From a bacterium (GTDB lineage: Bacteria; UBA9089; CG2-30-40-21; SBAY01): a DNA stretch of 27,871 bases. Under the pieces are notes generated by a model, which saw nothing but the letters and a program-made list of their open reading frames with translations, did no database searches and had not been told where the DNA came from. Location: contig JBFLYA010000015.1 of the NCBI GenBank assembly GCA_040757115.1, forward strand, positions 4,463-32,333, in the 5' to 3' direction. Both the position numbers and the translations under genes were made by a program. This document shows positions 1,005 to 27,106 of the stretch, one piece after another (the first letter of the stretch is position 1; every line of letters starts with the position of its first letter).

Positions 1005-1157
1005 GTAGGAAAGTAAGAGAGTAGGAAAGTAGGAAAGGGGAGACATTGTCCCCAGAAGAGGAATACCGTGCACATCCTTTATCCCTTTCCTACTACCTAC
1101 TTGCCTACTATTTCCTCCTGAAAGTAGGAAAGTAGGAGAGTAGGGAAGTAAGAAAGG
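1005..1157. repeat. Tandem GTAGGAAA-type repeat tracts, direct and inverted
   Basis: A direct tract at 1005-1040 has GTAG-type units every 8 bases. It is followed by an inverted tract at 1084-1116 (CCTACT-type units) and a second direct tract at 1121-1157. A further inverted tract lies at about 1294-1322. Together they can pair into long hairpins. They could act as a transcription end for the leftward ptsI operon, but no classic terminator with a T-run is apparent. Confidence 0.85.
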
Positions 1158-1283
1158 TATTATCTAATTCTATCTAAAGATCTTAATTATCTGCCAGATT
1201 TTCAATCCATTTGGGATATATCTGAAGAAGTGAGTAGGATGCTTATAGGTTTAATCAAATCAATTAAGAGTAAAATAGTATGA
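1152..1283 (+). pseudogene. Four-helix-bundle (S23-like) protein, C-terminal remnant
   Basis: The frame is open from just after a TAA at 1149-1151 to the TGA at 1281-1283, too short for a normal gene and without a start. The peptide contains YYLILSKDLNYL and ends EEVSRMLIGLIKSIKSK. This matches the last two helices of the four-helix-bundle family first known from 23S rRNA intervening sequences, whose typical pattern is YxLxxAKDLGYL followed by EEixrMLxGLIKSL. About two thirds of the usual 110-130 residues are missing. The upstream part is replaced by the GTAGGAAA repeat, whose last bases supply the first codons. The protein's role is unknown in general and this copy is not expected to be made. 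Confidence 0.6.
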
Positions 1284-1350
1284 AGTATTTTCCCCCTTTC
1301 CTACTTCCTACTACCTACTTGCTTGGTATGCTGAATAGTTACAAAGGAAA

Positions 1351-5043: not shown

Positions 5044-5297
5044 GTAACCGTTCACCGCAGAGACACAGAGACGCAGAGAAAAAATTAAAAACTATTTACC
5101 ACATGCCTCATTCCATCACGGATTTTCATCAGAGCAAGCTTTTGAAAACCGACATATCATGATTGATTAACAAATTTGGTTTTGAGGTCCTATGTATTAC
5201 TATGATTGCCTCAATAATCTTTTCTGTTGTCTGATTTATTTCAATCTCTTCTCTGTTCCTCTGCGTCTCTGCGGTGAATTACTATCTGAACGGTTAC
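5044..5297. mobile_element. 254-bp MITE-like cassette with inverted ends and 8-bp target duplication
   Basis: The left end GTAACCGTTCA (5044-5054) is the exact reverse complement of the right end TGAACGGTTAC (5287-5297). GATTTTTT lies directly outside both ends (5036-5043 and 5298-5305), as expected for a target-site duplication. Just inside each end is a CACCGCAGAGAC-type repeat (5053-5078 and 5252-5277) in opposite orientation, so the whole unit can fold back. It holds a GxxExxY-protein remnant and no transposase. The ends are those of the element at 990-1342 with two substitutions. Confidence 0.7.
5129..5278 (-). pseudogene. GxxExxY-family protein, N-terminal remnant
   Basis: On the minus strand an open frame runs out of the CGCAGAGAC repeat and reads INQTTEKIIEAIIVIHRTSK before stopping at 5131-5129. 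This matches the start of GxxExxY proteins (typically ELTEKIIGAAIEVHRxLGPGLLES), a family of small proteins of unknown function. The defining GPGxxExxY motif has decayed to KPNLLI and the remaining two thirds are lost. No start codon or ribosome-binding site is present. The repeat is read in frame as a charged N-terminal extension. It is a dead gene carried inside the cassette. Confidence 0.55.
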
Positions 5298-5897: not shown

Positions 5898-6425
5898 TTA
5901 CTCCTCTAAGATTCTACTTATAACCAACTGGGCAGATAAGACACCCTTAGTTCCACTTTTTGCTTTTAGTCTTAAAGATGAAACCTTTAGAAGTTTAGAT
6001 GATAATTGATAGATAAATTTTGTCAGGTGATTTATTTCCCCTTCTGCCTCAACTACGATGATAAGTCTTTTATAAAATCCCATATCCTTAACTATTCCCG
6101 GCTTAATATCTACTAAATAAAGGTTTGAAGCCTTAGATATAGATTCTATCACTTTTAAAGTATCCGCTAATTCCTCTTCCAGAGAACCTTTTATCTGTAA
6201 TGTCCTGGAGAATTTGTTATATACCGTAGAGATTTTATCCTTTTGGCTAATAATTCGTCTATTTTTTAAAAGTAGTATTTCCTTAGATAATACCTCGTTG
6301 TTCAATTTGGACAAAAAATTATAGCCTGGTTCAAGTAGATAAGTATATCCTGCATAACCAAGAATGACGGCAATGGTAATCCATAATAATTTCTTTTCTC
6401 TTTTGGTAAATTGTGAAAAAGTCAT
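5898..6425 (-). CDS. gspM: GspM/PilO-like type II secretion platform protein
   Basis: This is a bitopic inner-membrane protein expected to pair with GspL. From the ATG at 6425 it has 175 residues: a basic cytoplasmic tail (FTKREKKLL), one membrane helix (about 14-32), a coiled-coil-rich stretch (about 38-100), and a ferredoxin-like periplasmic domain with a LIIVVEAEGEINHLTKFIY strand-helix unit. The start at 6425 overlaps the gspL stop by ATGA and has AAGGAAG upstream. A longer frame to a TTG at 6449 lacks such support. The family is poorly conserved, so the call rests mainly on topology and position after gspL. Confidence 0.75.
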   Translation of the reverse strand: MTFSQFTKREKKLLWITIAVILGYAGYTYLLEPGYNFLSKLNNEVLSKEILLLKNRRIISQKDKISTVYNKFSRTLQIKGSLEEELADTLKVIESISKASNLYLVDIKPGIVKDMGFYKRLIIVVEAEGEINHLTKFIYQLSSKLLKVSSLRLKAKSGTKGVLSAQLVISRILEE

Positions 6426-7855
6426 AATTCTTCCTTTTCCAGTGGGCAATTAATTTGAAAATCAGTTACTTCACGATTCCCTACTCTTCGTTTGGTAGCA
6501 TAATTTACCTTTACATTCTTAAAATAATCTGAATCTTCCAGTGTAGAAATTAAGGAGAACACTGTTGACATATTTCTTGCCTCTCCTCTAATGATAGTCA
6601 AGGTTTCTTTTTCAAAGATAAGTTCATTTAAAGAGATATCTATAGGAATTAATCTATAAATTTCTGCTAATATATCAAGGCTTAATTGCTGTTTACTCAT
6701 CTGCTCAGAAATAGCGTCAAGTCTTTTTTTCTTTAATTCTATATCCTTAGCTAAAGGTAGATTAATCCTAATTTCTTTATCAAGATAATCTATATATTGA
6801 TAAGTAGCACAGAGTTTTGTAATGGTAAGGACAGATAAACTCAAGATTAAAAGTATTACCAATATGCCCGATAAGATAAAATTAGTATGTTTATCTTTTT
6901 TTCTTTGATTTATTCTGATGGATTCAGGTAACAGGTCAATCCTCTTTTCTGCAGAGCCAATAACTAACCCTACTACTGTTGTTAGTTGAGGCATTTTATC
7001 TGATCTCTGACCTCTGTCTTCTGACTTCTGTCCTCTGTTTTCAGGTGGAACAATAAAACCTTTAAAAGGGGCACATATCTCCACAGGAATACCTATATCT
7101 TCCTCTAATCTTTTATTCAGTCCTTTTAAACTTGCTACTTCACCACTAAGGACAATTTTTTGAATTTCTGCCCCTTTAATTTCTCGTTTGTATACAGTTA
7201 AAGATGTCCTTAACTCCTCGGCTATTCCTTTTAAAGGGTCTCTTCCTGGGATAGAGACACTACGGCTAAAGAGTAATCTATTTTGATTAATAAAGATAAT
7301 ATCCGTAGTCGCAAATCCGATATCTAATATGGCTATGGATAGAGGAATTTCAAGTTGGGTATGCTGATAGGAATTAAAGATTGCCTCGGATGTTAAAAGA
7401 ATTCGAGTAGGTTCTAATTTTATTTGTTTTAAAATCTGCAGGTGTTTGTTAACAATGTCGTTATGTGCTACCACTAACATTACTTGTGTGGAATTATCCT
7501 GTTGAGATAGGATTTGAAAATCTATGATGAGTTCTTCTAAAGGATAAGGTAAGAGTTTACCTGCTTGGAATTTAACCATTTCTGCCAGCTCTTTTTCATC
7601 TACGGAGGGTAATTCTAACCATCTGATAGTAACAAATTGCCGATTGATACAGGTATGAAGATTAACTACCCTAATCTTATTTTTCTTTATGAGCTCAGCT
7701 ATAGTTTGAGATATCTTATTATCCTTTGTCTCATCCTCATCTTGAGGTATTTGAGTAGAGCATAATTTTAATAGTTTAACCCTTCCTTTTGAGTCTTTCT
7801 TTACTTGAATTATCTTTACTGAATAATCATCAAAGTCTATACCGGTAATAATCAT
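6422..7855 (-). CDS. gspL: GspL-type platform protein, PilM-PilN fusion
   Basis: The protein recruits the secretion ATPase to the membrane platform. Residues 1-310 form an actin-like PilM domain: GIDFDDYSVKIIQV (phosphate-1 loop), LPYPLEELIIDF (the PilM signature), LDIGFATTDIIFI and IVLSGEVASLKGL. A membrane helix lies at about 325-347. The rest is a PilN-like periplasmic part with coiled coil and a ferredoxin-like domain (LNELIFEKETLTIIRG and a late VNYATKRR strand). The fusion into one chain is what defines GspL. Residues 272-287 (ENRGQKSEDRGQRSDK) come from a period-7 DNA repeat inserted in frame. It starts 8 bases after gspK and overlaps gspM. Confidence 0.85.
   Translation of the reverse strand: MIITGIDFDDYSVKIIQVKKDSKGRVKLLKLCSTQIPQDEDETKDNKISQTIAELIKKNKIRVVNLHTCINRQFVTIRWLELPSVDEKELAEMVKFQAGKLLPYPLEELIIDFQILSQQDNSTQVMLVVAHNDIVNKHLQILKQIKLEPTRILLTSEAIFNSYQHTQLEIPLSIAILDIGFATTDIIFINQNRLLFSRSVSIPGRDPLKGIAEELRTSLTVYKREIKGAEIQKIVLSGEVASLKGLNKRLEEDIGIPVEICAPFKGFIVPPENRGQKSEDRGQRSDKMPQLTTVVGLVIGSAEKRIDLLPESIRINQRKKDKHTNFILSGILVILLILSLSVLTITKLCATYQYIDYLDKEIRINLPLAKDIELKKKRLDAISEQMSKQQLSLDILAEIYRLIPIDISLNELIFEKETLTIIRGEARNMSTVFSLISTLEDSDYFKNVKVNYATKRRVGNREVTDFQINCPLEKEEL
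7000..7042. repeat. Period-7 TCTGYYC repeat inside gspL
   Basis: About six degenerate copies of a TCTGYYC heptamer lie in the coding region. On the coding strand they read as RGACAGA-like units and encode GQKSEDR-like heptapeptides. The orientation is the same as in gspF, in gspE and in the gspF-gspE gap. Confidence 0.85.
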
Positions 7856-7863
7856 TGTCTAAA

Positions 7864-8760
7864 TTATTCCTCTCTCCAATATTTTATCTTGCCTGTTTCG
7901 AGGTCAATTATTGAAGTTATTTTTTTAGTTACTTTATTTACTATCCCTGTCGCACTAATTCTAAAGGTATTAGAATTAGTAGTAATTAGTTGGCTAATTG
8001 AGTTGTATTTCTCTCCTATTCCCTGGACATTCTTTATATCCTGTGGTGTTTTAAATATGTTATCATCCTCGGTCCCTTCTTTTCCATCAAATCTTGCTCG
8101 ATAATTAATAATATTTTGAGCTAATTCTTCATTTAGTAAGACAGATAATACTTCCTTAGGGGCCGTATTAATATTTATAGCCCCTTGACCATATACCGTT
8201 ATCAATTGGTTAATTTTACCTTCTCCATATAGTATTTTTGAAATTACTCCTTTGACTAATAATAATTCTTCAATGGATTCAAAAGGTGCATTTTTACAAT
8301 GATAATTTTTTAAAATACTCTGGTAATACTCATCCTCAGCCTCATAATCTTCTTCCTTAATATCTACATCCCTCCAGTCAATTATGCAGGAGACTATCTC
8401 TTTATTCAACTGTGGTAGCTTCTCAAGGGTTGTTCTTGTAGCATAATTCAGGTTAATTCTGCGTTCCTCATCACTTACTTGATAGATAAATCTTCCTCTG
8501 CCCAATTCTACCTCTTTTTGCCCATTCCACGGTTCATTAAGGGCATCATAATCATTTGTATCTTTTTTTAACTCTGCAATAGCATAATTAATTCCTGCCT
8601 TCGCTAAGTATAAAGCCCGTAGGGAATCAATTTGAAATTCAGTCAATTTTATCTCTACCCTCATCCGATGAGAGAAAGAAATAGCTAATAAGGTTAAGAT
8701 AGTTAATATCCACAGGGTAACAATCAATACCACTCCTTTTTCATCCTTCATTGTTTTCAT
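7864..8760 (-). CDS. gspK: GspK minor pseudopilin
   Basis: GspK caps the T2SS pseudopilus together with GspI and GspJ. The 299-residue product has a prepilin-type N-terminus: a short basic leader ending KG, followed by VVLIVTLWILTILTLLAISF. It lacks the Glu at position +5, which is normal for this family. The body shows AKAGINYAIAEL, DEERRINLNYAT, IIDWRDVD and the helix-hairpin-helix-like GAININTAPKEVLSVLL, all typical of GspK. The start at 8760 overlaps the gspJ stop by ATGA and has AGGAAG upstream; the longer GTG start at 8784 adds eight residues with no ribosome-binding support. Confidence 0.95.
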   Translation of the reverse strand: MKTMKDEKGVVLIVTLWILTILTLLAISFSHRMRVEIKLTEFQIDSLRALYLAKAGINYAIAELKKDTNDYDALNEPWNGQKEVELGRGRFIYQVSDEERRINLNYATRTTLEKLPQLNKEIVSCIIDWRDVDIKEEDYEAEDEYYQSILKNYHCKNAPFESIEELLLVKGVISKILYGEGKINQLITVYGQGAININTAPKEVLSVLLNEELAQNIINYRARFDGKEGTEDDNIFKTPQDIKNVQGIGEKYNSISQLITTNSNTFRISATGIVNKVTKKITSIIDLETGKIKYWREE

Positions 8761-9314
8761 ATCGAGCTTCCTATGGGAATCCACACCGTCGTAGTAAACA
8801 TCTTTTTATCCGCATAGAGAGAGACTTTTACTGCTTTAGGTGGTTTATTCGTATTCCATGTTTCATGCCAGATGTCTTCTAAATCCAGATACTTGAATTC
8901 TACTTTATCTACAGATTCTATCATTGTCTCTTCTAAATCTTTATTCTCTTGCCATGCAAGAAAAGTTTCTCTCTTTAAAAGTTTATTTTCATCCCATTGA
9001 TAGGTTATTTTTGATAAAGTTTGTTTTTGTGTATCTAAGGCTAAAAAATTCAAATAGGTATCTTTACCTTCAAATTTCTCATTCTCTAATTTAGTTGTAT
9101 TTCTAAGTGCAGTGGATATCTCATCTAAGGATAGTCTTAATTCCTGGTATAAAGATACCTTTTCATCACCCATCTTAGTTACACTAATTCCTTGACTAAA
9201 TGTTGTATAGATAGCCGTGATAATAATCATAAAGATTGATATACCAATAAGCACTTCAATCAGGGTAAATCCATTTATAAGTAAGTGATTAAATCTACTA
9301 TCCCTTCTTTCCAT
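8757..9314 (-). CDS. gspJ: GspJ minor pseudopilin
   Basis: This is a minor pseudopilin of the T2SS tip complex. The 185-residue product has the prepilin cleavage motif NG-FTLIEVLIGISIFMIIITAI with Glu at +5, then a long helix (QELRLSLDEISTALRNTT) and a mostly beta C-terminal domain. Length and pattern agree with GspJ/PulJ. The gene overlaps the end of gspI by 40 bases and the start of gspK by 4, so translation is coupled. Pseudopilins are cleaved by GspO, which is not in the window. Confidence 0.9.
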   Translation of the reverse strand: MERRDSRFNHLLINGFTLIEVLIGISIFMIIITAIYTTFSQGISVTKMGDEKVSLYQELRLSLDEISTALRNTTKLENEKFEGKDTYLNFLALDTQKQTLSKITYQWDENKLLKRETFLAWQENKDLEETMIESVDKVEFKYLDLEDIWHETWNTNKPPKAVKVSLYADKKMFTTTVWIPIGSSI

Positions 9315-9637
9315 TCTACTATTACCTTTACCTCTTTCAAATCTAATTCCTTTATTTTCTTAATTTCGGCTTTCCATGTAAATTCGGATTCATCTTCAAA
9401 TCCTCCCTCTATCTTTCCCGAATAAAGTTCTTGTGTAGTATTTTCTAACTCACTTATCTTCTGGGCAAGTAAAAAAACCGCCTTTGTATAATTCTTAGAT
9501 GCCTTTACTGCCTGCAAACTTATCATAAAAGAGCTTAAGATTAAAACTATTCCCAGACAGAGAATAGACAGGGAAAGCATCACTTCAAGAAGGATAAAAC
9601 CACTGTTAGTCCATATCTTTCTTGTAAATCTTAACAT
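9275..9637 (-). CDS. gspI: GspI minor pseudopilin
   Basis: This is a minor pseudopilin that nucleates the tip complex with GspJ and GspK. From the ATG at 9637 the protein has 120 residues, with a basic leader (MLRFTRKIWTNSG), the cleavage motif G-FILLEVMLSLSILCLGIVL with Glu at +5, and a short beta-rich tail (FTWKAEIKKI, VKVIVEWKEG). That is the usual size of GspI. AAGGA upstream of 9637 supports this start; the frame extends to a TTG at 9655 without support. It overlaps gspH by 32 bases and gspJ by 40. Confidence 0.87.
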   Translation of the reverse strand: MLRFTRKIWTNSGFILLEVMLSLSILCLGIVLILSSFMISLQAVKASKNYTKAVFLLAQKISELENTTQELYSGKIEGGFEDESEFTWKAEIKKIKELDLKEVKVIVEWKEGIVDLITYL

Positions 9638-10103
9638 AATTAATCCTTGTGCCAAATGTTAAAATATACTCTCTACTCTCTTCATCTCTAAGAGTTAATA
9701 CCCCTATATTAACTCTACCATCAGGATAGAAGATAATAGCATCAAGATAGCTATTCATTACAAATTCTTCTGGAAGACAATAGACTTTTCCAGACTTAAC
9801 ATAATAATCAGGGTAGTTAATTGGGTCTTTTTCTACAGATAACCAGTATTTTTTACCCTGATAATCGAGATTCAGTTTATATTTAGTCCTTTCTAAGACA
9901 GCCTTTTGTCGGGCATAGGTGATAAGTGAAGCCATTTCTTTAGCCGTTAGAGAGATTTTAAGATTTTTGTATGTTCCTTTAAAAGATGGTATCGCGGTTA
10001 GTATTAGTATTCCTATCATAGATATAACTATCAATAATTCAAGTAAAGTAAAACCTTTACTCTCTCCTATCTGTTTGTGTTTCTTCCCAGTTGCATACAT
10101 CAT
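9606..10103 (-). CDS. gspH: GspH minor pseudopilin
   Basis: This is a T2SS minor pseudopilin between tip and shaft. It has the prepilin motif KG-FTLLELLIVISMIGILILTAIP with Glu at +5, a helix containing TAKEMASLITYARQKAVLERTKY typical of GspH/FimT, then beta strands with FYPDGRVNIGVLTLRD. The FYPDGR motif is characteristic of GspH. The frame is open to a GTG at 10112. Two adjacent ATGs at 10103 and 10100 sit about 8 bases after AAGG, so 10103 was chosen (165 residues). It overlaps gspG by 47 bases, a large overlap for this cluster. Confidence 0.9.
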   Translation of the reverse strand: MMYATGKKHKQIGESKGFTLLELLIVISMIGILILTAIPSFKGTYKNLKISLTAKEMASLITYARQKAVLERTKYKLNLDYQGKKYWLSVEKDPINYPDYYVKSGKVYCLPEEFVMNSYLDAIIFYPDGRVNIGVLTLRDEESREYILTFGTRINYVKIYKKDMD

Positions 10104-10494
10104 CACCGCCACCTTCTACACCATCCTTTCCGTAAGAAATTAAGTCGTAATCTTCATTATGCACCCCGGGGCAGGTGTAATGGTATGGATTATTCCAGGG
10201 ATCTACGGGTATTTTCTTCTTAAGATAAGTTCCTTTCCAGTTATTCGGGATAGGTGGAGTAGTAGGTTTTTGTCTCAAAGCGGATAATCCTTGCTCAGTC
10301 GTGGGGTAGGAATCATTATCTAATTCATACATATCTAAGGCAACTGAAATACTGACAATATCTGCTTTAGCTCTCGCTACCTTTGCTTGATAAGTTCTGC
10401 CAGTAAATCTGGGCAAGACCATCGCTACCAATATGCCAATAATGATAATGACAAGCATAAGTTCGATTAAAGTAAAGCCCTTATTGTTTCTCAT
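10057..10494 (-). CDS. gspG: GspG major pseudopilin
   Basis: This is the main building block of the pseudopilus. The 145-residue protein has a very short leader (MRNNKG) and the sequence FTLIELMLVIIIIGILVAM with Glu at +5. It then has VARAKADIVSISVALDMYELDN and YPTTEQGLSAL, the loop DPWNNPYHY, and the calcium-site region DYDLISYGKDG followed by GGGDDVCNW. All are hallmarks of GspG. GGAGG lies 8 bases before the ATG. It starts 20 bases after gspF. The C-terminal tail is longer than usual and is encoded where the gene overlaps gspH. Confidence 0.97.
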   Translation of the reverse strand: MRNNKGFTLIELMLVIIIIGILVAMVLPRFTGRTYQAKVARAKADIVSISVALDMYELDNDSYPTTEQGLSALRQKPTTPPIPNNWKGTYLKKKIPVDPWNNPYHYTCPGVHNEDYDLISYGKDGVEGGGDDVCNWEETQTDRRE

Positions 10495-10514
10495 ACCTCA
10501 GTCCTCCTATTTTT

Positions 10515-11771
10515 TTACTCTACTAAGATATTCATCTTAAAAATAGGTAATAGCATGGCAATAACAATAAATCCGACCATAAATCCCATAGCCAAAATCA
10601 CTATTGGTTCTAATAATGAGGTGATTACTTTTATTGACCTATCAAGTTCCTTTTCATAATTTGAGGCTATTTTTAATAATGCCTTTTCTAAAAAGCCACC
10701 TTCTTCGGAAATAGATACCATACTGACCATTAAAGATGAAAAAAACTCTTTGTCTATTAAACTATTCGCAAATCCCTTACCTTCATCGACTTGTTTATAA
10801 ATTCTATCAATATCCTTTTTAAAAATTAAATTACCACTATGACTACTAATTACCTTTAAAGCCTCTAATATGGACACGCCGTTTTTCAATAAAGTGCCTA
10901 AATTTAAACTGAATTTTAAAACCTCTACTTTTTTTATCACCTCACCTATATAGGGTAATGACAACAAGAATTTATGGATAGTTAAACGACCTTTTTGAGT
11001 AGCAAGCATCCTTTTTATGGCAAAGATGACAATTATAAAAGAAGCGAATATCATCCACCAATATTTAGCCATAAAATTACTACTAAAGATTAAAATAAGG
11101 GTAGGAAATGGTAGATTTTGTCCTAAATCCTCAAACATAGTTACTAACTTCGGGATAACAAAAGTCATCAGGAAACAAATGCTTATTATTCCTACCGCGA
11201 CTAATAAACAAGGGTAAATTAATGCGGTAGATACCTTCATCCTCAAATCTTCTATCCTTTCAAGATAATCTCCTGCCCTATCTAACACATGAGGTAACAT
11301 ACCTCCTGCCTCTCCAACCTTAATCATAGTTACTAAAAATGCAGGGAATATTTTAGGGTATTTATTTAGGGCATCAGAGAATTTCATCCCTTGCTGAACA
11401 TTTTTATTTACCTCCTCGATTATTATTTTAAATTGTTTATTTTGGGTTTGTTGATATAATACGGATAAGGCTTTATTTAAAGGAAGTCCGCCTTCAAGTA
11501 AATCTGATATTTGTCTGGTAAACATAGTCACTTCCTTATTATTTATCGGGTTAAATCGCCATAGTTCCTTCTGTTTTCTGTCCTCTGCTCTCTGCCCTCT
11601 GCCTTCTGCTCTCTGCTCTCTGCCCTCTGCCTTCTGTTCTTCCTGTATCAAAACAGGGAAATAACCCATTTTATCTAAGGTATCGACAACTATTTTTTGT
11701 GATTCAGCAACTATGTTACCTTCAAATATATTACCCGATTTATCCTTTGCCTTATATACAAAGTTAGGCAT
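10515..11771 (-). CDS. gspF: GspF inner-membrane platform protein
   Basis: GspF is the polytopic core of the T2SS platform that works with the ATPase GspE. The 418 residues contain an N-terminal MPNFVYKAKDKSGNIFEG segment and two T2SSF domains: the first includes GMKFSDALNKYPKIFP and MIKVGEAGGMLPHVL, the second GVSILEALKVISSHSG, SMVSISEEGGFLEKAL and LEPIVILAMGFMVGFIVIAM. Membrane helices follow each domain. Residues 44-69 are a strongly charged stretch of AEGRGQR-like heptapeptides encoded by a period-7 DNA repeat, placed in the linker before the first T2SSF domain. An AGGAG sequence precedes the ATG. A 128-base gap with the same repeat separates it from gspE. Confidence 0.97.
   Translation of the reverse strand: MPNFVYKAKDKSGNIFEGNIVAESQKIVVDTLDKMGYFPVLIQEEQKAEGREQRAEGRGQRAEDRKQKELWRFNPINNKEVTMFTRQISDLLEGGLPLNKALSVLYQQTQNKQFKIIIEEVNKNVQQGMKFSDALNKYPKIFPAFLVTMIKVGEAGGMLPHVLDRAGDYLERIEDLRMKVSTALIYPCLLVAVGIISICFLMTFVIPKLVTMFEDLGQNLPFPTLILIFSSNFMAKYWWMIFASFIIVIFAIKRMLATQKGRLTIHKFLLSLPYIGEVIKKVEVLKFSLNLGTLLKNGVSILEALKVISSHSGNLIFKKDIDRIYKQVDEGKGFANSLIDKEFFSSLMVSMVSISEEGGFLEKALLKIASNYEKELDRSIKVITSLLEPIVILAMGFMVGFIVIAMLLPIFKMNILVE
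11568..11644. repeat. Period-7 TCTGYYC repeat inside gspF
   Basis: About eleven degenerate TCTGYYC heptamers occur within the coding sequence, read on the coding strand as AEGREQR, AEGRGQR and AEDRKQK. Among the three tracts within coding sequence it is the longest. The reading frame stays open through it. Confidence 0.9.
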
Positions 11772-11815
11772 TCCTTCTCCTCAAATCAGAAGTCAGATTT
11801 TAAAGGTATTGTCAT

Positions 11816-11901
11816 TCTGTCCTCTGCCCTCTGCTCTCTGCTCTCTGCCCTCTGTCCTCTGTCCTCTGCCCTCTGCTCTCTGCCCTCTGACCTCTGTCCT
11901 C
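11816..11901. repeat. Period-7 TCTGYYC repeat between gspE and gspF
   Basis: About twelve tandem heptamers fill most of the 128-base gap and reach the gspE stop codon itself: the TGA is followed at once by GGACAGAGG on the coding strand. A short inverted piece (TCAGAAGTCAGA, 11785-11796) lies nearer gspF. No promoter was recognised in the gap. Confidence 0.9.
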
Positions 11902-13426
11902 ACTGCTGTGTTATTCTTAATACCTCTAATTTATTTGTAATTCCTGCTTCTACCTTTTTCATTCCATCTTCAAGTAATGTCTTCATCCCTAATTCAACTG
12001 CCTTTTCTTTAATTTTATAAGTAGGAGATTGGTTTAATATTAACTCCCTTATCTCATCACTCATTAATAAAATCTCATAAACTCCTGTTCTCCCTTTATA
12101 ACCTGTATATCTACACTCCTCACAGCCAAACTTCTGTCCTCTGTCTTCTGTCCTCTGCCCTCTGTCTCCTTCCTTACACCTCGGGCATATCTTCCTTACC
12201 AATCTTTGAGCAATAATCGCCTCAATAGAGGATGATATCAAATAAGGTTCTATCTTCATATCCAGTAATCGGGCAATAGCTCCTGCGGCATCATTAGTAT
12301 GTAAAGTAGAAAATACCAGATGTCCGGTCAATGCGGTTCTAATCGCCAATTCTGCTGTCTCTAAATCCCTTATTTCTCCTACCATCATTATATCCGGGTC
12401 ATGTCTTAACATCGAGCGTAGTGCATTAGCAAAGGTAAAATCAATCTTTGGTAAAACTTGCATCTGGGTTATCCCTTTTATTTGATACTCAATTGGGTCT
12501 TCAATAGTGATTATATTCTTTTCAATAGAGTTGATTTTAGTCAAGCAGGCATACAAGGTAGTTGTTTTCCCGGAACCCGTTGGTCCTGTAACCAATATTA
12601 TACCATGCGGCTGAGTTATTAATCGATTTATTTTTAATAAATCCTCATCACATAACCCTAATTCTTCTAAGGTATATGGTTTTCTACTCAAAATTCTTAT
12701 ACTTACGCTCTCTCCAAAAGGTGTAGGAAGAACAGATACCCGTAAATCATATTCATCTTTGCCTACCTTAATCTTTATCCTGCCATCCTGTGGAACTCTA
12801 TGTTCTGCAATATTTAAATCTGCCATTACCTTTATCCTTGAGATAATTGCCTGGTGGAACTGGCTAATTTTAGCGGGTATAGGAATATTATAAAGTATGC
12901 TATCAATACGGTATCTTATGGTTAACTCTTTTTCATAAGGCTCAAAATGAATATCCGTAGCTCGGTCATTAATAGATTCTAATATAATTTCATTAACAAA
13001 CTTAATTATCGATGGGTCTTTGGCATTATTACTTATATCTTCAGATTCTTTTGTTTCGCTTGTAATTTCAAGTCTTGCTCCTTCAAAGTAGTCTCCTCTT
13101 GCCTTTATTCCTTCTATGGTTTCTGCCCCTATTCCATAGTATTTTTTAATTGCCTTCAATATATCTACTTCATTACTTAAAACAGGTTTTATTTCGTACT
13201 TTAAGAGGCGTTTTATGTCATCTAAGGTATGAATATCTGTGGGATTAGTCATAGCTACCGTGAGATAACTATCATTTAAAGATAGAGGTATAAGTTTATA
13301 ATGTAAGGCAAATTTAGCGGAAACCTTCCTGATTGCCTTCGCATCTATATGAATATCCTGTAATTGCACATAAGGGATATCAGTTTCCACCAGATTCTCC
13401 TTTTCTTCTGATATAGATTGGTACAT
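11900..13426 (-). CDS. gspE: GspE type II secretion ATPase
   Basis: GspE is the cytoplasmic hexameric ATPase that drives pseudopilus assembly. The 508 residues comprise an MshEN/GspE N-terminal domain (about 18-98), the catalytic NTD2 with DRATDIHFEPYE and YRIDSILYN, and the RecA-like domain. Walker A is GPTGSGKT at 281-288, the Asp box ITIEDPIEYQ follows, Walker B is DPDIMMVGEIRD at 343-354, and the His box is TGHLVFSTLHTNDA. The four zinc-binding cysteines are present (CPRC at 414-417, CEEC at 435-438), but the loop between the pairs is a GDRGQRTEDRGQK-type repeat encoded by a period-7 DNA tract. AGGAG lies 7 bases before the ATG. A type IV pilus PilB is less likely because of the GspD and GspG-K neighbours. 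Confidence 0.97.
   Translation of the reverse strand: MYQSISEEKENLVETDIPYVQLQDIHIDAKAIRKVSAKFALHYKLIPLSLNDSYLTVAMTNPTDIHTLDDIKRLLKYEIKPVLSNEVDILKAIKKYYGIGAETIEGIKARGDYFEGARLEITSETKESEDISNNAKDPSIIKFVNEIILESINDRATDIHFEPYEKELTIRYRIDSILYNIPIPAKISQFHQAIISRIKVMADLNIAEHRVPQDGRIKIKVGKDEYDLRVSVLPTPFGESVSIRILSRKPYTLEELGLCDEDLLKINRLITQPHGIILVTGPTGSGKTTTLYACLTKINSIEKNIITIEDPIEYQIKGITQMQVLPKIDFTFANALRSMLRHDPDIMMVGEIRDLETAELAIRTALTGHLVFSTLHTNDAAGAIARLLDMKIEPYLISSSIEAIIAQRLVRKICPRCKEGDRGQRTEDRGQKFGCEECRYTGYKGRTGVYEILLMSDEIRELILNQSPTYKIKEKAVELGMKTLLEDGMKKVEAGITNKLEVLRITQQ
12131..12170. repeat. Period-7 TCTGYYC repeat inside gspE
   Basis: About five and a half heptamers are inserted between the two CxxC pairs of the zinc-binding loop (residues about 419-433). 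The frame is kept and the cysteines are unaffected. Confidence 0.88.
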
Positions 13427-13499: not shown

Positions 13500-13660
13500 T
13501 TTTGGAATACCATAAAATAAATTAAAAATCAAACATCAAAATGTAAAATTACAAATCAAAAATCAAAATATTCTCCAGCTACTTTGTTAATTTACAAGTA
13601 TTTTTGCATTTTGCATTGTAATTTTGATATTTGCATTTTGATATTTACATTAAAGTTCTT
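13500..13660. repeat. AT-rich inverted tandem repeat between gspD and gspE
   Basis: The left arm (about 13523-13570) has ATCAAAA/ATGTAAA-type units and the right arm (about 13608-13655) has the reverse-complement units (TTTGATATT, TTTGCATTT). The spacing of units is about 7, as in the other palindromes of this window. It occupies most of the 313-base gap, so gspE may be transcribed separately from gspD or read through it. I see no gene in the gap. Confidence 0.75.
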
Positions 13661-15742: not shown

Positions 15743-15816
15743 AATTAGAGATTAGAGATTAGAGAATTAGAACCTGCACTCTTGCTAATCTCTAATCTCC
15801 AATCTCCAATCTCTAT
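15743..15816. repeat. AGAGATT-type inverted tandem repeat
   Basis: The left arm carries TTAGAGA units every 7 bases and the right arm the complement (TCTAATC, TCCAATC units), with a short loop around 15768-15785. It could form a hairpin of about 25 base pairs with mismatches. Confidence 0.8.
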
Positions 15817-15953: not shown

Positions 15954-16149
15954 CTTCCCTTCTCCTGAAAATCGGGGTTCGGGGTTCGGATTTCGGGGGT
16001 AGGGGATTCTTTTATTCCCGAGCCCCGAGTCCCGAGCCCCTTAATTTTCATCCCACTTTGTGCCCCGCCAGGGCATGAGTGTTTCTCCTGCCTACTACAT
16101 ATTATATATTAATTTATCCAGATGTCAACTATAAAGTAAAAATTTGAAA

Positions 16150-19303: not shown

Positions 19304-22300
19304 TTAATAAGTTTCCAGTATAGTTTTCCATCCAGAACCATATAAACTTTCCACTTCTTTTAAATAATTTTGAAGTTGTTTTTCCCCCAACTTTATAGCA
19401 CTTGGATTATTTGGTTTTAATTCATAAATAATCTTTTTTTCAAGATCAATGAAATCTACTTTTTTACCGCTTGGCAATCTAAATTCTTTTATCCTAATTC
19501 CTTCTAAAACTTCATCAGCTTTAAAAAGTTTATGGATAGCACGACCTTTAGCGATTGCTTCGGCAACTTTGGGATTAGCAATGCCTCGCTCTCCACTCTT
19601 TACAGCTTTAAGTGCCGCGCCAATTTTTTCCGCAGCCTTTTCTCCCGCCCTTGCTGTTTTAAGTGCTACGCCAGCGCCACCTGGAACACCTGGAATAAAG
19701 GTTGCCCCTAAATCAACTATAATTGCTCCAGCGCCAATCCAACTTGGCGCCATAGCAAACTCTACAACACCAACACCCAAGCTGGTTACATCCCAGACAG
19801 TCTCTGCTGCCTCTCCATCAGGGTCAACATACTTTAATGGATTATTAATTCCATAGGCATAAGGATTCAATCGTTGTGGCTCCCGCAGAATTCGTTGTGA
19901 TGGAACACGCTCAATCGCTGGATCTGAGATAATAAATCTACCTAATTCAGAATTATAGTACCTTGCTCCATAGTAGTATAATCCTGTCTTTTCATCAAAT
20001 CTCTTACCTGTAAACCCTATCTTGTAAGCACTTCCTGGAGAAGCCTTACCACCAAAAGGATAATAATCCTGAGTGGTATAATTATCATCTAGACTATTGG
20101 TAATCACACGAGGAGAGCCAAGATAATCATTATGATAATAGTAAGTTTGGTACTTAGTGCTCGGTAGGGGATGTTCAACTCTTGCTATTACTTGTTCATT
20201 AGCATGAATATAGAAGATATTATCAATAGGTGTTAGCGAAGTAATATCAATAGTCTTTAGTTGCTGGAAATCCTCACTAATTGTTATTATCTCAATATCA
20301 TCTATATACCAGCCTTCATAATCGTTATACCACCCATCTACTGTATCAAAACTAAATTTAAGTTTTATATTATTTATAGTATAAGGTGATATATCGAAAG
20401 ATTCCTCATGCCAATCTTTATAACAGGGACCTTCGTTACAATCATTGTAAAATATCCGATGCCAGGATATACCATCATAAATCTCTACCCTCATATTATC
20501 ATAGTCTCCATAGGAATAAGATTCATGTTGCCATCTTGTCTTGAATTTTAAGGTAGCATTATTTACAGTGGTCAGATCAATAAATGGTGAAGTTAACGCA
20601 CCAAAATTCCTATTTCTACCAGTATCATAATTTGTTCCATTATTATAAGCAAAACAGTATTGAGAGCTATAATTTTTGGTTTTAGAGCGATTCCACAAAC
20701 CATCATATAACCAGAGATTATCCTGCGGTGCTTCCTCTTTTTCAAAATCAGCATTAAAGGAAGATGGTTCAACTCTAACATTATCTATATACCAACCTTC
20801 ATAATCGTTATACCATCCATCTACCGTATCAAAACAGAATCTTACTTTTATTAGTTTACCGGCATAAGCTGAAATATCCAATAATTCCTCATGCCAATTT
20901 GTAGATGCCTGTCCTTCATTACAATCGTTATAAAATATCCGATTCCAACTTTTACCATCCCATACCTCTACTTTTATGTTATCATAATCTCCATAAGAAT
21001 ATGATTCATGTTGCCAACGGGTCCAAAATCGTAATTTAGCCGTTGTTACCTTGGTCAAATCAATAGTAGGTGAGGTTAAAATTCCAGAGTTTCTTCCACC
21101 AGTATTGTAATTAGAGCCATTGTTATAGGCAAAGCTATAATTAGAATTATAACCTTTACCCTGTGCCCGATGCCAAAGCCCAGTTGTAGTCCATACATTT
21201 GGCTCAGGTAATGTTTCAAAATTGTCTTTAAATAAAACAACCGATTGAACGGTTTTTGTGCTAAAATTCTCTTCGTAAATTATCTCTCCTCCAGCATTAT
21301 AATGATATAGAGCAACTAAAGTAATTGTTCCATCATTAGTAAATTTCTTAACCCTTTTCCCATCTCCATCATATACATATCCCTCAAGCCACTTTCCATC
21401 TTGATTAACCTCGACTAATCTATTTTCATAATCATATAAATAGGTAAAAGTGATTCCATTATAGCTCTTAGATTTTAGGTTGCCATTATCATAATATGTA
21501 TAATTATAAAGATTATCTGAGATAAGGCGGTTAGGATGTGAAGCATAATATGTGTAGTTACGAATAGAGGTGCCTGATGAATCTTGAACTCTTGACCATG
21601 TCCGATTTCCTATTTCATCATAATCATATTCTATTTTTAGATTACTTGTAGGATTGTAATCTATTGAGATTAGCCTATCTATAGAATCATAATCATATAC
21701 TACAAATGGAGTGTTAGTCTGGACTAACTCATTATATTCCTCCTTAAGATTTCCTGCTGGCTCATACTTGTAATACCTGTGGAAGATAGGAGAGGTCTTA
21801 ACTACTGTTACTTTCTTCATCCAACCTCGAGGATAATAGTCATAGTTAGTTATAAACTGATTATTATAAGTGATGGATGAGATATCCCCATTAGGTTCAT
21901 AAAGGTATTTTTCAACTATTTTATTCAATCCTTCTACTTCAATAAAATCTACCCGATTGAAGATATTATAACTATAGATAATCTTTTTATTAGAAGGGGT
22001 AATTATCCAGTCAATATTACCTGCTGAGTTATAATGATAGGTAGTAGTATATGTTTGACCTACTCCATTTATCTTCCTTCTTTGTTGAATTAACCTATTA
22101 CACCTATCATAGCTATAATTAGTTACTCCTACATCGTCTATCATATTTGTACGATTTCCAGTACCATTTATTCCTTGATCGTAGGTATAACTTACCTTTT
22201 GAATAAAGTCTTCGCTGGACTGTGGATTGTTTACTTTCGGATCATTTATTGGGTCACTACCAGTGTAATTTAATATCCCCTTTGCTATCACTCTATCCAA

Positions 22301-25300
22301 CTTATCATATCTATATTCTACCCAATTACCTGCCTTTTTCTGTTCGGCATCTCGACTAAACCTTAAATTGCCATTTAAGTCATATTGATACTCCCTCCTT
22401 CCACTGTCTAAATGGTCCACAGCAAGTAATCTATTCAATGTGTCATAAGTATATTTAGTCTCATGGCCATCTTTGTCTTGAATTATAGTCAGGTTGTCTA
22501 ATATATCATAGGTATAATTAGTAGTAAGATTATAAGTCTCTCCTTCGTCCGGAGAGTCTTCCTCTACTTTAACTAACCTACCTAATTTATCAAATGTAGT
22601 TCTCTTATAATGACCATTTTCATCTTTAGTGGTTACCAGATGGAATCCAGCATTATCATTCCTATGGGTAATAGTCACCACGCCAGTGGGCTCTGGATAG
22701 ATAATCTTGTAAGTTCTAAATAATGAATCATAGTGATATTCCGTATAGGTATTTGGTCCTTCTGATTCAATGTAAGGAGAATATTCCTTTTTTATCTTTC
22801 CAATCTCGTTATATTCAACCTTACTACATACACTTTCCCCTGAAGAGGTATAATTTATTGTAACATCAAGTAGTTCCTCACTTGCTGTGGAAACACATCC
22901 TTCCAGATATACCTTCCAGCGCAAGTATCTTTTAACTGGTGAATTAATAATTCCTACAAATTTACCATTTTGCCAGTGTCCCGTTACTTCCTGAGCTTTT
23001 GATTCCTCCCAGGTAAACTCACTCGTATCACTACTTTGGGTTTTAATTTTAATCGATATCATAGGCAGTCCGTGAAAATCTACATTTGCAGAAAAAGTCC
23101 CATAATTATGCAATGTAGAACCAAAATCAATCAATGGAGAAAGAAGTGAACCTAAAGAGACATAGATTAAACCACTAAGATTGAAAGAAAAAGAGGGATT
23201 TGAAGGGCCATGCCAGCCATCCCCATCCATATCTTCAAAAGCAAATGTCCTAAGAATTATCTTATTTGAATCTAGACTAACTAACCCACAATAATTTGAA
23301 TCTTGACTTGACCACCATGGATTAGATGCACCAACGCCATTAGAAGAATAACTTTTAATCTGGGGAGAAGATATAAAAGAGGGAAAGAAAACATATTCCA
23401 TTGTATATTCATGCACATCTTGATTAGTCCACAGTCTCCCATCAAAAAACTGTTTATTTCGATGGCCACATACGCGTTCACTTGTTTTTCTAAGCCCACT
23501 CTGGGCTATTTCTTTGGTAACAATACTTCTTTTAACAGTTCCTGAATTGGTTATATCAATTCCTTCACCTGCACATCCCTTCCATTCTGTTTTATTGTTC
23601 CATGTCTTTGTGTGAGATATAATTGTATTTGTATCATTTGTTTTTGTTTTAGTTTTTATCAATTGCCCCAGTCCATTATAATATTTAGTGGTTTCTTTTT
23701 TTATTTCATTATTTATCTTTTCAGAGATGATAATCCTATTCAAATCATCATCAGAGGAAAAGTTTCCATAATGATAACTATATTGAATAGTTGGAGAATC
23801 AAGGGTATCTTCTGGCTTTATTATTTTCTCTAATCTACCAAAGATATTATATCTATAAATAGTCGAATTCCCATTAGCATCTGTTAAAGTATCTATATCT
23901 CCATTCTCATTATAATATGTATCTACATAATGTCCTAAGGCATTTTTAATACTGGTACAATAGGCATGTTTTAATTCACTGGCACTATTACTTCTTGGAT
24001 TATCATTATCACCAAAATAGTAATAGGTAGAATTGCCATTAGCATCCGTTTTTTGTAAAAGATTACCATAGGCGTCATAGTCAACATAAGTAGTAGTACA
24101 TGTATTCTCTCCAGCATCATATTCTTTATCTCCATCTTTATCTAACCACCTATATTCTGACACTGGATATATCTGAATTCCTTCAGTATCATCAAAATCT
24201 TTATATAAAGTAATCCTTCTATTTGCTAATGTATAATTGTTAAGTTTTTGGTCTTGGATTGTTACTGTCCCTACTTGATTTATCATATGTTTATTTTTCA
24301 TATCATCATAATATTGAAATGCATAGGTGTTTTGTGTTACTCTATTTCCATCATTTCCATGTTCGGTCATAGTTCCCACTAAACCATTTATTGGATTATA
24401 GAGATAATTTATCTCTTGATATGTGCTTACGGTTCCAATTGTAACATTTCCAGATGCAGACCAAGTAAAAACTACACCTTCTGGAGGGTTTGGATACCAC
24501 TCTTGAATCCAATCTCCAGCAATATCGTATATATCCTTTAACACATAACATTTTGCTTTAAAACCATCTGTTCTATTTTCTATAACCTGCATTCCTCCCC
24601 AATAATTATTTGCACTAACAGATAGTTGTGGTGGTTCGTTAAAGGTTATACCATAGGAGACATCTACTATTGCCCAAACATTGTAGATAGCTAACTCAAC
24701 CCACCAGATACTTACCTTTTTATTAGAGCGTTCTTCTTGAGCCCCTCTACTTCCGTTCTTACTTCCCGAAAGATATCTTGTTTCAATACTCTCTACCCCA
24801 TTATATGCAGTTTTATAGGTATTTAATTTTGCCCAACCACTGGTTAATTTTTCCTTTCCACCACTCCATGTAGCCTGGTCTTCAAAGGTATATTTATTTT
24901 CAACTATTTTAATCGCTTTATCTTCCTGGGTGTAATAAGTTATCTTTGTTAATAATCCCCGTCTATAATCCATATCATATTGCCATTCATCGCCTTCATT
25001 AGGATGGGTATAGGCATTTGTAAATTCATGAACACTATATCCAGAAGGTCTGGCTGTAGAATTATTAGAGTCATAGCCTGGAATGACAGTAACCTTACAG
25101 TAACCTACATAACTGTCAGCTTCATGACTACCAATATAAATTCTGTCATTAAGTGACTCACAAGGAGGAGGTTCTATAGGTGTAGCACCACTACTTTCTC
25201 CATAATTATTGGCATCTCCATCCCCTTCCTCTAAATCATAACCCTTTACATTATATAGATATCTAACAATTTGTTTGTTTCCAAGACCATCTGAGATGGT

Positions 25301-27097
25301 TATCGTTTTTACCCTTATTCCACCCCCATATTGAGTTCTATAATCATTATCTATAACTCCCCATAATCCCTCATTTCTACCAGTTCCTGCCGCTTTATTT
25401 CCTACATGGGCGTATCTATCTGACTCATACTCCCATTCAATTGTTCCACCAGTAGGATAAATTACCTTTGTTAAAGACCATGCCTGAGGAATAATATTTT
25501 CCAGTCTACAACTGGAATTATGATTATCTATTGAACCATTGGAATAATAATAACCCCAGCGATCCCATTTATACTTATCCCAGGTTGGATTTTGGGAATA
25601 ATATTCAAATCTTGTTGGAGGTAAAGCATTACCTCCATTTTTGCCTCCTCTACCATATTCTGTAATTTTTGATAAGGTTAACTTGCCTACAGGGGATTCA
25701 GGAGCACCAGAACATAACGGATTGGAATTATTATATTCGCAATAAATACTCTTAATAATCTCAGAAGAATTATTTTTATTATATAATTGTATTTCTGCTA
25801 ACTTCATAGGAGGGTGGTTACTTCCATTAGAAGTTGCTACAAAAGATGCTTTATGTGTAGGTGTTTCTATTGAAGTCAGATGAGCTAATTCTCTTTTGCC
25901 CCATGAGGAAAAATATGTTTTAAACCCTTTATCATTTCTACCTTCATATTCCCCTCCATCAGAGGGATTATGAAAATTATACTCACCATCAACTTGATAA
26001 TTAAACTTAACCCAGTTACCTTTATCATCCCCACCATTATCAGGAATTAAATCTCCATTACCATCAATATAATCTGGAGAAAGAATAGCTGTTAATAGCC
26101 ATTTATATGGGTATGGGTCAAGGAATTCTGTTTTAAGCCTTCCTTTTGTATCTATATCATCTATAATTCCAGGTACTTTCCCCTCAAATCTTGTCTGCCA
26201 CCCTCCAGATTTTACTAAGAGTGGTTGAGCATAAACATATTTGGTACCATCTTTTTCGGTAATAACAAATTTTTTTATCCCGTTAGAAATAGATGCAGAC
26301 AATTCATACTCTATCCTTACAGCATCATCCACTTCAGAATTAGAAGATGTTTGTCCACATGTACGTTGTAGATGGAACTTTCTACTATTAGGACTTCCAC
26401 TTAATACCAATTTATTGCTCTTACCTATTCCTGAAAGATAATATAAATCAGGTGTTGCTCCATCTCGAGGGTCTTCATCCTCTAAATTATGATGGTTGGT
26501 ATATAAAAATCCACCATCTGAAAACTTTTGATCACGAATATCTATATCTGTTTCTCCTACACTCACACTTCGACCAGAAACATAAGGTTTTATTTCAGTC
26601 CCATCATTATTACCCCAACTTACACTAAAACCCATTCCTCCACTAATAAAAAATTGGAAAATTCCCTCGATTATTTGTTCATACCACTTCCTGGGACCAA
26701 CTTCTATTTGTCTAAAGAAGTGTACATTTTCTTTCCCTTTCCAGTAATCATCAGGCCAACTTACTACCTCTCTTGTAATAACTCCTGGACATAAATCAAA
26801 TCCTAATCCTACCCACGATGCCATTTGATTGACTCTAATTCCTGCCTTGTAAGTTAGTTCAACAGGATAATCTAATTCTCCTCGACCAGGTACTGTAAAT
26901 AGTGGAATCTTCAGGTTCATATCGCCAGTATAAAGATCAACTGTAGATTCATCCAGACTAATACCCTTTGGAGTAAAATTATAGATTTCTGGTTCACTGC
27001 CAAAAACTACCTGAGTTCCTACTACCCATGTTGAGACACAAATAAAGCAGGCAATTAATTTTAGCCTGCTTAAAAAACTTAAAACCCATTTTAACAT
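19304..27097 (-). CDS. Secreted RHS/YD-repeat polymorphic toxin with C-terminal REase-fold nuclease domain
   Basis: The protein has 2597 residues from the ATG at 27097. It has a Sec signal peptide (MLKWVLSFLSRLKLIACFI...VVFG), then an N-terminal domain with DLYTGDMNLKIPLFTVPGRG common in secreted RHS proteins. Tyr-Asp repeats (DAYGNLLQKTDANGNS, DILDNLTIIQDKDGHET, DEIGNRTWSRV) run over about 1000-1945. Two tandem beta-sandwich units lie at about 1953-2280 and the RHS core-associated domain at about 2313-2433 (YYYHNDYLGSPRVITN, GLYYYGARYYNSELGRFIISDP, ending NPLKYVDPDG). A hydrophobic Gly/Ala segment follows, and the tip (about 2510-2597) has VDFID, YELKPN and QLQNYL, the D...ExK pattern of restriction-endonuclease-fold toxins (Tox-REase class). 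The RHS shell would encapsulate the nuclease. The frame extends to an ATG at 27181, but SGGWEL there is simply the translated ribosome-binding site of 27097. Confidence 0.92.
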   Translation of the reverse strand: MLKWVLSFLSRLKLIACFICVSTWVVGTQVVFGSEPEIYNFTPKGISLDESTVDLYTGDMNLKIPLFTVPGRGELDYPVELTYKAGIRVNQMASWVGLGFDLCPGVITREVVSWPDDYWKGKENVHFFRQIEVGPRKWYEQIIEGIFQFFISGGMGFSVSWGNNDGTEIKPYVSGRSVSVGETDIDIRDQKFSDGGFLYTNHHNLEDEDPRDGATPDLYYLSGIGKSNKLVLSGSPNSRKFHLQRTCGQTSSNSEVDDAVRIEYELSASISNGIKKFVITEKDGTKYVYAQPLLVKSGGWQTRFEGKVPGIIDDIDTKGRLKTEFLDPYPYKWLLTAILSPDYIDGNGDLIPDNGGDDKGNWVKFNYQVDGEYNFHNPSDGGEYEGRNDKGFKTYFSSWGKRELAHLTSIETPTHKASFVATSNGSNHPPMKLAEIQLYNKNNSSEIIKSIYCEYNNSNPLCSGAPESPVGKLTLSKITEYGRGGKNGGNALPPTRFEYYSQNPTWDKYKWDRWGYYYSNGSIDNHNSSCRLENIIPQAWSLTKVIYPTGGTIEWEYESDRYAHVGNKAAGTGRNEGLWGVIDNDYRTQYGGGIRVKTITISDGLGNKQIVRYLYNVKGYDLEEGDGDANNYGESSGATPIEPPPCESLNDRIYIGSHEADSYVGYCKVTVIPGYDSNNSTARPSGYSVHEFTNAYTHPNEGDEWQYDMDYRRGLLTKITYYTQEDKAIKIVENKYTFEDQATWSGGKEKLTSGWAKLNTYKTAYNGVESIETRYLSGSKNGSRGAQEERSNKKVSIWWVELAIYNVWAIVDVSYGITFNEPPQLSVSANNYWGGMQVIENRTDGFKAKCYVLKDIYDIAGDWIQEWYPNPPEGVVFTWSASGNVTIGTVSTYQEINYLYNPINGLVGTMTEHGNDGNRVTQNTYAFQYYDDMKNKHMINQVGTVTIQDQKLNNYTLANRRITLYKDFDDTEGIQIYPVSEYRWLDKDGDKEYDAGENTCTTTYVDYDAYGNLLQKTDANGNSTYYYFGDNDNPRSNSASELKHAYCTSIKNALGHYVDTYYNENGDIDTLTDANGNSTIYRYNIFGRLEKIIKPEDTLDSPTIQYSYHYGNFSSDDDLNRIIISEKINNEIKKETTKYYNGLGQLIKTKTKTNDTNTIISHTKTWNNKTEWKGCAGEGIDITNSGTVKRSIVTKEIAQSGLRKTSERVCGHRNKQFFDGRLWTNQDVHEYTMEYVFFPSFISSPQIKSYSSNGVGASNPWWSSQDSNYCGLVSLDSNKIILRTFAFEDMDGDGWHGPSNPSFSFNLSGLIYVSLGSLLSPLIDFGSTLHNYGTFSANVDFHGLPMISIKIKTQSSDTSEFTWEESKAQEVTGHWQNGKFVGIINSPVKRYLRWKVYLEGCVSTASEELLDVTINYTSSGESVCSKVEYNEIGKIKKEYSPYIESEGPNTYTEYHYDSLFRTYKIIYPEPTGVVTITHRNDNAGFHLVTTKDENGHYKRTTFDKLGRLVKVEEDSPDEGETYNLTTNYTYDILDNLTIIQDKDGHETKYTYDTLNRLLAVDHLDSGRREYQYDLNGNLRFSRDAEQKKAGNWVEYRYDKLDRVIAKGILNYTGSDPINDPKVNNPQSSEDFIQKVSYTYDQGINGTGNRTNMIDDVGVTNYSYDRCNRLIQQRRKINGVGQTYTTTYHYNSAGNIDWIITPSNKKIIYSYNIFNRVDFIEVEGLNKIVEKYLYEPNGDISSITYNNQFITNYDYYPRGWMKKVTVVKTSPIFHRYYKYEPAGNLKEEYNELVQTNTPFVVYDYDSIDRLISIDYNPTSNLKIEYDYDEIGNRTWSRVQDSSGTSIRNYTYYASHPNRLISDNLYNYTYYDNGNLKSKSYNGITFTYLYDYENRLVEVNQDGKWLEGYVYDGDGKRVKKFTNDGTITLVALYHYNAGGEIIYEENFSTKTVQSVVLFKDNFETLPEPNVWTTTGLWHRAQGKGYNSNYSFAYNNGSNYNTGGRNSGILTSPTIDLTKVTTAKLRFWTRWQHESYSYGDYDNIKVEVWDGKSWNRIFYNDCNEGQASTNWHEELLDISAYAGKLIKVRFCFDTVDGWYNDYEGWYIDNVRVEPSSFNADFEKEEAPQDNLWLYDGLWNRSKTKNYSSQYCFAYNNGTNYDTGRNRNFGALTSPFIDLTTVNNATLKFKTRWQHESYSYGDYDNMRVEIYDGISWHRIFYNDCNEGPCYKDWHEESFDISPYTINNIKLKFSFDTVDGWYNDYEGWYIDDIEIITISEDFQQLKTIDITSLTPIDNIFYIHANEQVIARVEHPLPSTKYQTYYYHNDYLGSPRVITNSLDDNYTTQDYYPFGGKASPGSAYKIGFTGKRFDEKTGLYYYGARYYNSELGRFIISDPAIERVPSQRILREPQRLNPYAYGINNPLKYVDPDGEAAETVWDVTSLGVGVVEFAMAPSWIGAGAIIVDLGATFIPGVPGGAGVALKTARAGEKAAEKIGAALKAVKSGERGIANPKVAEAIAKGRAIHKLFKADEVLEGIRIKEFRLPSGKKVDFIDLEKKIIYELKPNNPSAIKLGEKQLQNYLKEVESLYGSGWKTILETY
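20260..21240. repeat. Internal duplication of a 161-residue beta-sandwich unit in the RHS gene
   Basis: Two in-frame copies are offset by 483 bases: for example, CCTTCATAATCGTTATACCA occurs at 20313 and again, unchanged, at 20796. Both protein copies contain FAYNNGxNYxTG, RWQHESYSYGDYDN, RIFYNDCNEG and FDTVDGWYNDYEGWYID. The pattern resembles MAM-like or immune-inhibitor-A-like sandwich modules. The duplication looks recent because the DNA is still similar. Confidence 0.9.
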
Positions 27098-27106
27098 CAA
27101 TTCCCA

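Follow-up and report, generated by a model that had tools for sequence, protein, structure and literature searches.

The locus examined here raises the question of why tandem tracts of one heptamer (TCTGNNY) occur in three T2SS genes and in the gap between two of them. The tracts lie in a window (i.e., the whole stretch of DNA that was analyzed; 27,871 nt) from a genome referred to here as G000, which we compared with a sister genome (G001; GspE 95% identical). The closest named relatives of GspE are from the Omnitrophota (59% identity). Heptad repeats have been known from cyanobacteria for decades and were later found in Xanthomonas and Beggiatoaceae. To our knowledge, they have no agreed origin, and we know of no function for the protein (S23, or IVP) of rRNA inserts, the gene for which proved relevant to this locus. 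The tracts and their host genes are as follows.

6422 to 7855, 10515 to 11771, and 11900 to 13426: ORFs hosting the tracts (gspL/pilM-like, gspF, and gspE, respectively)
6999 to 7040, plus strand: TCTGNNY heptad tract in the gspL/pilM-like gene (PilM/PilN-like), encoding ENRGQKSEDRGQRSDK on the minus strand; equal in length in G001
11570 to 11639, plus strand: TCTGNNY heptad tract in gspF, in the linker ahead of the first T2SSF domain; 21 bp (three units) longer than in G001
11785 to 11798, plus strand: short opposite arm (ATCAGAAGTCAGAT) of the gspE-gspF element; in G001 the arm is longer and is followed by an IVP gene
11799 to 11815, minus strand: spacer of about 18 nt between the gspE-gspF arms; an IVP gene stands at that place in G001
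11816 to 11901, plus strand: main arm of the element between gspE and gspF, made up of 12 TCTGNNY heptad units
12133 to 12167, plus strand: TCTGNNY heptad tract in gspE, in the zinc-binding loop (CPRCKEGDRGQRTEDRGQKFGCEEC); equal in length in G001

The host genes were identified by Pfam domains (PilM_2/PilN for the gspL-like gene, T2SSF for gspF, and MshEN/T2SSE for gspE). A preliminary description of the window had placed the tracts in these genes and in the gspE-gspF gap, in a single orientation. Its coordinates were correct; all of the tracts are TCTGNNY on the plus strand, and a 14-bp heptad pattern matched the window 33 times (1.6 matches expected; 0 of 100 shuffles reached 33). A 25-bp heptad pattern matched the complete genome (4.3 Mb) 283 times, while the reversed-pattern control yielded 0. 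Thus, what the window shows is a sample of a feature that extends throughout the genome. In two genomes of the sister genus (G002 and G003), heptads of the reversed pattern (i.e., GTCT-type) were commoner than those of the TCTG type, suggesting that the dominant unit differs among genera.

At the orthologous gspE-gspF site of G001, inverted arms (TCTGNNY/RNNCAGA) enclose an intact, stop-free ORF of 123 aa, the stop codon of which falls within the downstream arm. The ORF (G001:C94:6652-6966) matches PF05635 above the curated cutoff (E value, 7.1e-35; 121 bits). PF05635 is the family of the protein encoded by 23S rRNA intervening sequences (S23/IVP), and the sequence relatives of this protein among solved structures are PDB 2gsc and 2rld. 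Since the spacer at 11799 to 11815 of the window resembles the start of the IVP gene when compared by eye (AGAATGA N7-8 TTAAAA), loss of the gene from the window genome is suggested. The sequence comparison suggests that the gspE-gspF tract of the window is the remnant of an IVP cassette, in which the gene is gone and both arms are kept. Elsewhere, the gspE-gspF junction holds nested heptad hairpins of two other units (G005) or none (G008).

The arrangement in G001 proved to be general. PF05635 genes above the cutoff number 23 in G000 and about as many in G001, and the family occurs in 130 of 366 genomes but in 0 of 14 control genomes. The IVP genes are flanked upstream and downstream by tandem arrays that are mutual reverse complements, and the arm unit differs at nearly every locus, except among copies of one element. 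In G000 and G001 together, 41 of 45 IVP genes scored above the 95th percentile of 191 control ORFs for inverted arrays. One IVP locus was also taken from each of 36 genomes, 25 of which lie outside the window's phylum; of these loci, 28 scored above the 99th percentile, and 24 exceeded the maximum, of 533 windows from the same set. Plasmid-borne IVP genes are mostly cyanobacterial, and 10 of the 12 inspected on cyanobacterial plasmids have arms (e.g., GGCAGGGGGCAGGGAGCAGGGGGCAG in Nostoc sp. UHCC 0302). The period of the arrays around IVP genes is mostly 7, with 8 and 9 also occurring; in 828 kb of G000, period 7 was found in 77 of 104 arrays and period 14 in another 13, and at loci of other phyla, period 7 accounted for 18 of 23 arrays. 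A preference for operons, measured as codirection with neighboring genes, was mild and not significant (28 of 36 loci versus 66% for other genes), and a tblastn search with one query protein gave no match among 50,697 phage records. 

Two further observations concern the surroundings of these genes. A small GxxExxY-like ORF (LITDRIINACINVHKELGPGFLESIYHNALKVEF) occurs inside repeat-armed elements (L288, at about 14400, and L242 in G001 C116), so IVP may not be the sole cargo. In addition, a CRISPR-like repeat (GACCTGATGAATAAGGGATTGCGAC) adjoins or surrounds IVP cassettes and GACTCGG heptad arrays (L216 and L211, G000 C7 and C42; L236 and L232, G001).

Paired arms are also common where the gene is absent. 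In the sampled sequence, an inverted partner lay within 800 bp of 70 of 122 noncoding arrays (48 of 85 in G000 and 22 of 37 in G001), compared with 4 of 100 and 3 of 40 random segments, respectively; for about 43% of the noncoding arrays, no partner was detected. None of the 18 coding arrays (0 of 15 and 0 of 3) had such a partner. The window itself holds the following hairpins, none of which is assigned to a strand.

5051 to 5278: inverted tandem-repeat hairpin with arms of the CGCAGAGACACAGAG type (40 nt, 83% complementary)
13518 to 13652: heptad hairpin between gspE and gspD, with AAATCAA/TTTTGCA-like arms; G001 has a short TCTG tract instead
15744 to 15813: heptad hairpin (ATTAGAG/CTCTAAT) upstream of gspD
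15972 to 16040: heptad hairpin with TTCGGGG and CCCGAGC arms
27231 to 27448: inverted tandem-repeat hairpin (GACATCAGACAC.../GTCTGAAGTCTGATG...) with 41-nt arms

The 23S rRNA gene of G000 likewise contains an ORF-less tandem-repeat hairpin, between CACCGAAGCT and GGTAGGGGAG (folding z, -6.0), at the site of positions 1027 to 1054 of the annotated E. coli 23S gene. We take this gap to be helix 45, the helix that carries the Coxiella intervening sequence. None of the PF05635 matches of G000 and G001 lies inside the located 23S genes. In the 23S rRNA of G001 (L346:100-400), a group I intron-like insert of about 250 nt follows TATAACGGTCCTAAGGTA; it is absent from G000.

Turnover was compared at orthologous G000/G001 sites, the flanks of which are mostly 90 to 99% identical. 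Two sites hold the same IVP in both genomes. At three sites (gspE-gspF, C265, and C126), one sister has an IVP and the other a bare heptad tract. At the gyrA and C130 sites, each genome has its own IVP (35% and 22% identity between the sisters), and the arms differ as well. An IVP stands opposite another hairpin at the C16, rpmF, and C211 sites and opposite a compact gap at C333. The copies at C108 and C6 are MITE borne and represent clean insertions with duplications of 8 bp (ACTTTTCT) or TTAA. The variety of these states indicates that cassettes and arms change fast and by more than one route.

IS66-type MITE ends (i.e., GTAA terminal repeats with an 8-bp duplication) were absent from the gspE-gspF site in both G000 and G001 but were found at other sites (e.g., C108). 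MITEs of this kind enclose some IVP cassettes, with an 8-bp target duplication, whereas most cassettes are without such ends, and their heptad arms are internal. Since some cassettes lie within MITE-like elements that have their own ends and duplications, their movement may owe nothing to IVP or to the heptads. We noticed numerous MITE-like elements bounded by GTAACTATTCA or GTAACCGTTCAGG (IS66-like GTAA, 8-bp duplication; L155, L219, L260, L150, and their G001 partners), inside which tandem repeats with units of 7, 8, or 9 bp form hairpins. Window positions 1005 to 1306 hold AGTAGGA-type arms of the GTAACTATTCA element family with no intact IVP gene.

The tracts inside genes are single arrays located in loops or linkers. 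The preliminary description had argued that they are tolerated when the added length is a multiple of 3 and had suggested comparing strains for changes in steps of 21 bases. In G001, the gspF tract lacks exactly 21 bp, the gspL and gspE tracts do not differ in length, and the coding-tract differences between G000 and G001 (21, 36, and 24 nt) are all divisible by 3. For this comparison, only rows with unique flanks were used, since the automatic pairing mismatched some repeated elements. Relative to G005, the gspF and gspL tracts are insertions (18 and 7 aa, respectively), as had been proposed for all three genes; for gspE, a clean insertion is not supported. The zinc loop of GspE varies in length: most Omnitrophota homologues have a longer one, and that of G005 is just 6 aa shorter. 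The tract therefore looks like a loop replacement.

The same description had also held the heptamer to be free of stops on both strands, which is correct for TCTGYYC only. TCTGACC and TCTGACT (in the gspL tract) carry TGA on the plus strand, and in 21 of 45 sampled tracts, one or more of the TCTG-sense frames contain a stop. That the repeat encodes the same cyclic peptide in all frames is true, yet this holds for any period not divisible by 3. Each of the 11 clear coding TCTGNNN tracts, which represent about eight independent loci, has CAGA in the sense strand and thus encodes a charged peptide, while stops alone would predict a share of only about 55% (an estimate from frame counts). The difference makes selection on the encoded peptide likely, and the sequences therefore point to a peptide-level filter on coding tracts as the likely case. 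Of the two terms used earlier for the element (i.e., adapted or filtered to be protein neutral), "filtered" fits better than "adapted."

In-frame tracts from several unit families are also present in other proteins, as the preliminary description had anticipated. A 1536-aa iron-sulfur/FAD protein (HdrA-like, by eye; L259:2630-7240) contains six of them, drawn from three unit families, and two of its tract sites differ between G000 and G001 (by 36 and 24 nt). In related genomes, the same loops of this redox protein hold other units (e.g., NPHSAFRIPHS, DPRSAIRDPRS, and NPESRAPSPESRVP). Thus, the sites persist while the units turn over; for protein evolution, this means that loops of conserved proteins are refilled again and again by repeats of a noncoding type. 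Coding tracts are a minority, and the main habitat of the arrays is noncoding. There, most of them form inverted arms, which in many cases surround IVP genes, and protein neutrality is irrelevant.

On the basis of these results, we consider it probable that a single genome-wide population of arrays underlies both forms, i.e., paired noncoding stem-loops that often hold an IVP gene and, as filtered lone arrays, the coding tracts. This reading builds on direct observations (the association of arms and gene and its wide occurrence, the turnover, the absence of partner arms for arrays within genes, and the frame and orientation constraints). The main noncoding form would be a stem-loop of two inverted arrays, often with a gene for the IVP/S23 four-helix bundle in the loop. 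Such cassettes would be laid out like 23S rRNA intervening sequences but would be placed between protein genes, often within operons, and would turn over fast. By analogy with those sequences, the arms would be expected to pair in the transcript, the resulting duplex could be a substrate for RNase III, and the IVP protein would presumably bind the paired arms. The gspL, gspF, and gspE tracts would be lone arrays sharing the unit family of the intergenic one, most likely derived from the same pool by slippage or ectopic copying. Their survival would require a length divisible by 3, a position in a loop or linker, and a strand that specifies a hydrophilic peptide, a filter that the frame and orientation data support.

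Period-7 repeats are described as the commonest class among those of 5 to 11 nt, and polymerase slippage has been proposed as their source (Mrazek 2007, as cited in PMC4679880). If a property of the replication enzyme expands such repeats, arms and IVP genes might merely share tolerant gaps. The dominance of period 7 in unrelated genomes (18 of 23 arrays in other phyla), the lone coding tracts (one of which differs by exactly three units), and the concerted drift of units at conserved loops are all consistent with this explanation, and slippage alone could produce the coding tracts, given that they have no partner arm. As an account of the whole, we regard it as rather unlikely, because slippage generates direct arrays and not inverted pairs, yet 57% of the noncoding arrays have an inverted partner, and because arms bracket IVP genes in most genomes tested, a level that random ORFs of the same genome reach in 5% of cases. 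Still less probable is that ordinary MITEs (with IS66-like GTAA ends and 8-bp duplications, or others) carry the arrays as cargo or consist of them, with IVP and heptads as passengers. The insertions at C108 and C6 of G000 and the near-identical copies at many sites are what such elements would leave; however, most IVP cassettes (e.g., those at gspE-gspF, gyrA, rpmF, flgG, C130, C152, C333, and C16) have no such ends, and the cassettes of cyanobacteria and other phyla also have arms, with different units.

Two other explanations address parts of the data. The charged peptides and the loop or linker sites of the coding tracts would suit adaptive linkers that are encoded by repeats through coincidence, but this is very improbable, since homologous loops in the phylum hold quite different units (NPHSAFRIPHS, EVRSQKSEV, and SPEPRAPSPE) and the same repeats occur outside genes. 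G-quadruplex elements, similar to the GGGNATC repeats of Xanthomonas, are a scarcely credible source; GGGCAGA units could yield four G-tracts, and inverted pairs have been reported in Xanthomonas too (PMC4692102), but most arms are A+T rich (e.g., ATAGTTG, GTTTAGT, AAATATC, and GTGAATT) and unable to form G-quadruplexes, a majority that rules them out as a general cause. An origin by reverse transcription is also unlikely; the reverse transcriptase family is represented by one full-length match in G000 and a 182-aa fragment in G001, which are distant from most tracts.

The paired-array cassettes share features with several known systems. The 23S rRNA intervening sequence of Coxiella burnetii (helix 45) is also an inverted-repeat stem around a PF05635-type ORF, which is adjoined by tandem heptamers (GACAGAT) with a strain-variable copy number (PMC4990558). 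The gspE-gspF cassette sits between two protein genes and not within an rRNA gene; it is an intervening sequence in layout but, being outside rRNA, not by location. The cassettes, known here from sequence, further differ in that their arms are wholly tandem arrays with locus-specific units. According to earlier reports, cas loci (PMC3936711) and the rRNA inserts of CPR bacteria (PMC11270868) also contain IVP genes. The Avd protein of diversity-generating retroelements has a homologous four-helix bundle fold similar to PF05635 (PMC10053308), but most cassettes have no adjoining reverse transcriptase, and G001 has only a fragment of one.

Like the STRR heptads of heterocystous cyanobacteria and the GGGNATC repeats of Xanthomonas and Nostoc, the arrays described here are 7-bp tandem units that are dispersed and mainly intergenic; the Xanthomonas repeats sometimes form inverted pairs (70 to 75 pairs; PMC4692102). 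The present arrays differ in comprising many unit families per genome, in being tied to IVP genes, and in having mostly arms that are not G rich. The TAACTGA heptads of Beggiatoaceae are also mostly intergenic, with few in ORFs and an orientation limited by stop codons, so that the argument from orientation and stops has already been published for them; they consist of a single unit located upstream of start codons, with no inverted arms or S23 link reported (PMC4679880). Thus, earlier work had described heptad repeats as well as the heptamers of one S23 insert. For the general link between S23 genes and inverted heptad arms, we found no report in the open-access literature.

If the repeats and S23 form one element, then the repeats are its stem, and the protein probably acts on that stem. 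The pairing recurs across bacteria, including cyanobacteria, and could explain the origin of the long-known heptad repeats. With a confidence slightly short of even, we propose that S23 genes across bacteria mark a widespread class of compact elements (i.e., heptad arm, gene, and inverse arm) that repeatedly enter and leave operons and that many dispersed heptads, such as the cyanobacterial STRRs and in-frame tracts, may be their arms, scars, or offspring. The sister genomes provide occupied and empty sites, and cultured Nostoc strains offer experimental material. Elsewhere in the window, we noted a 65-bp tandem repeat (2.5 copies) at positions 489 to 647 and a very long minus-strand ORF (2625 aa; 19304 to 27181).
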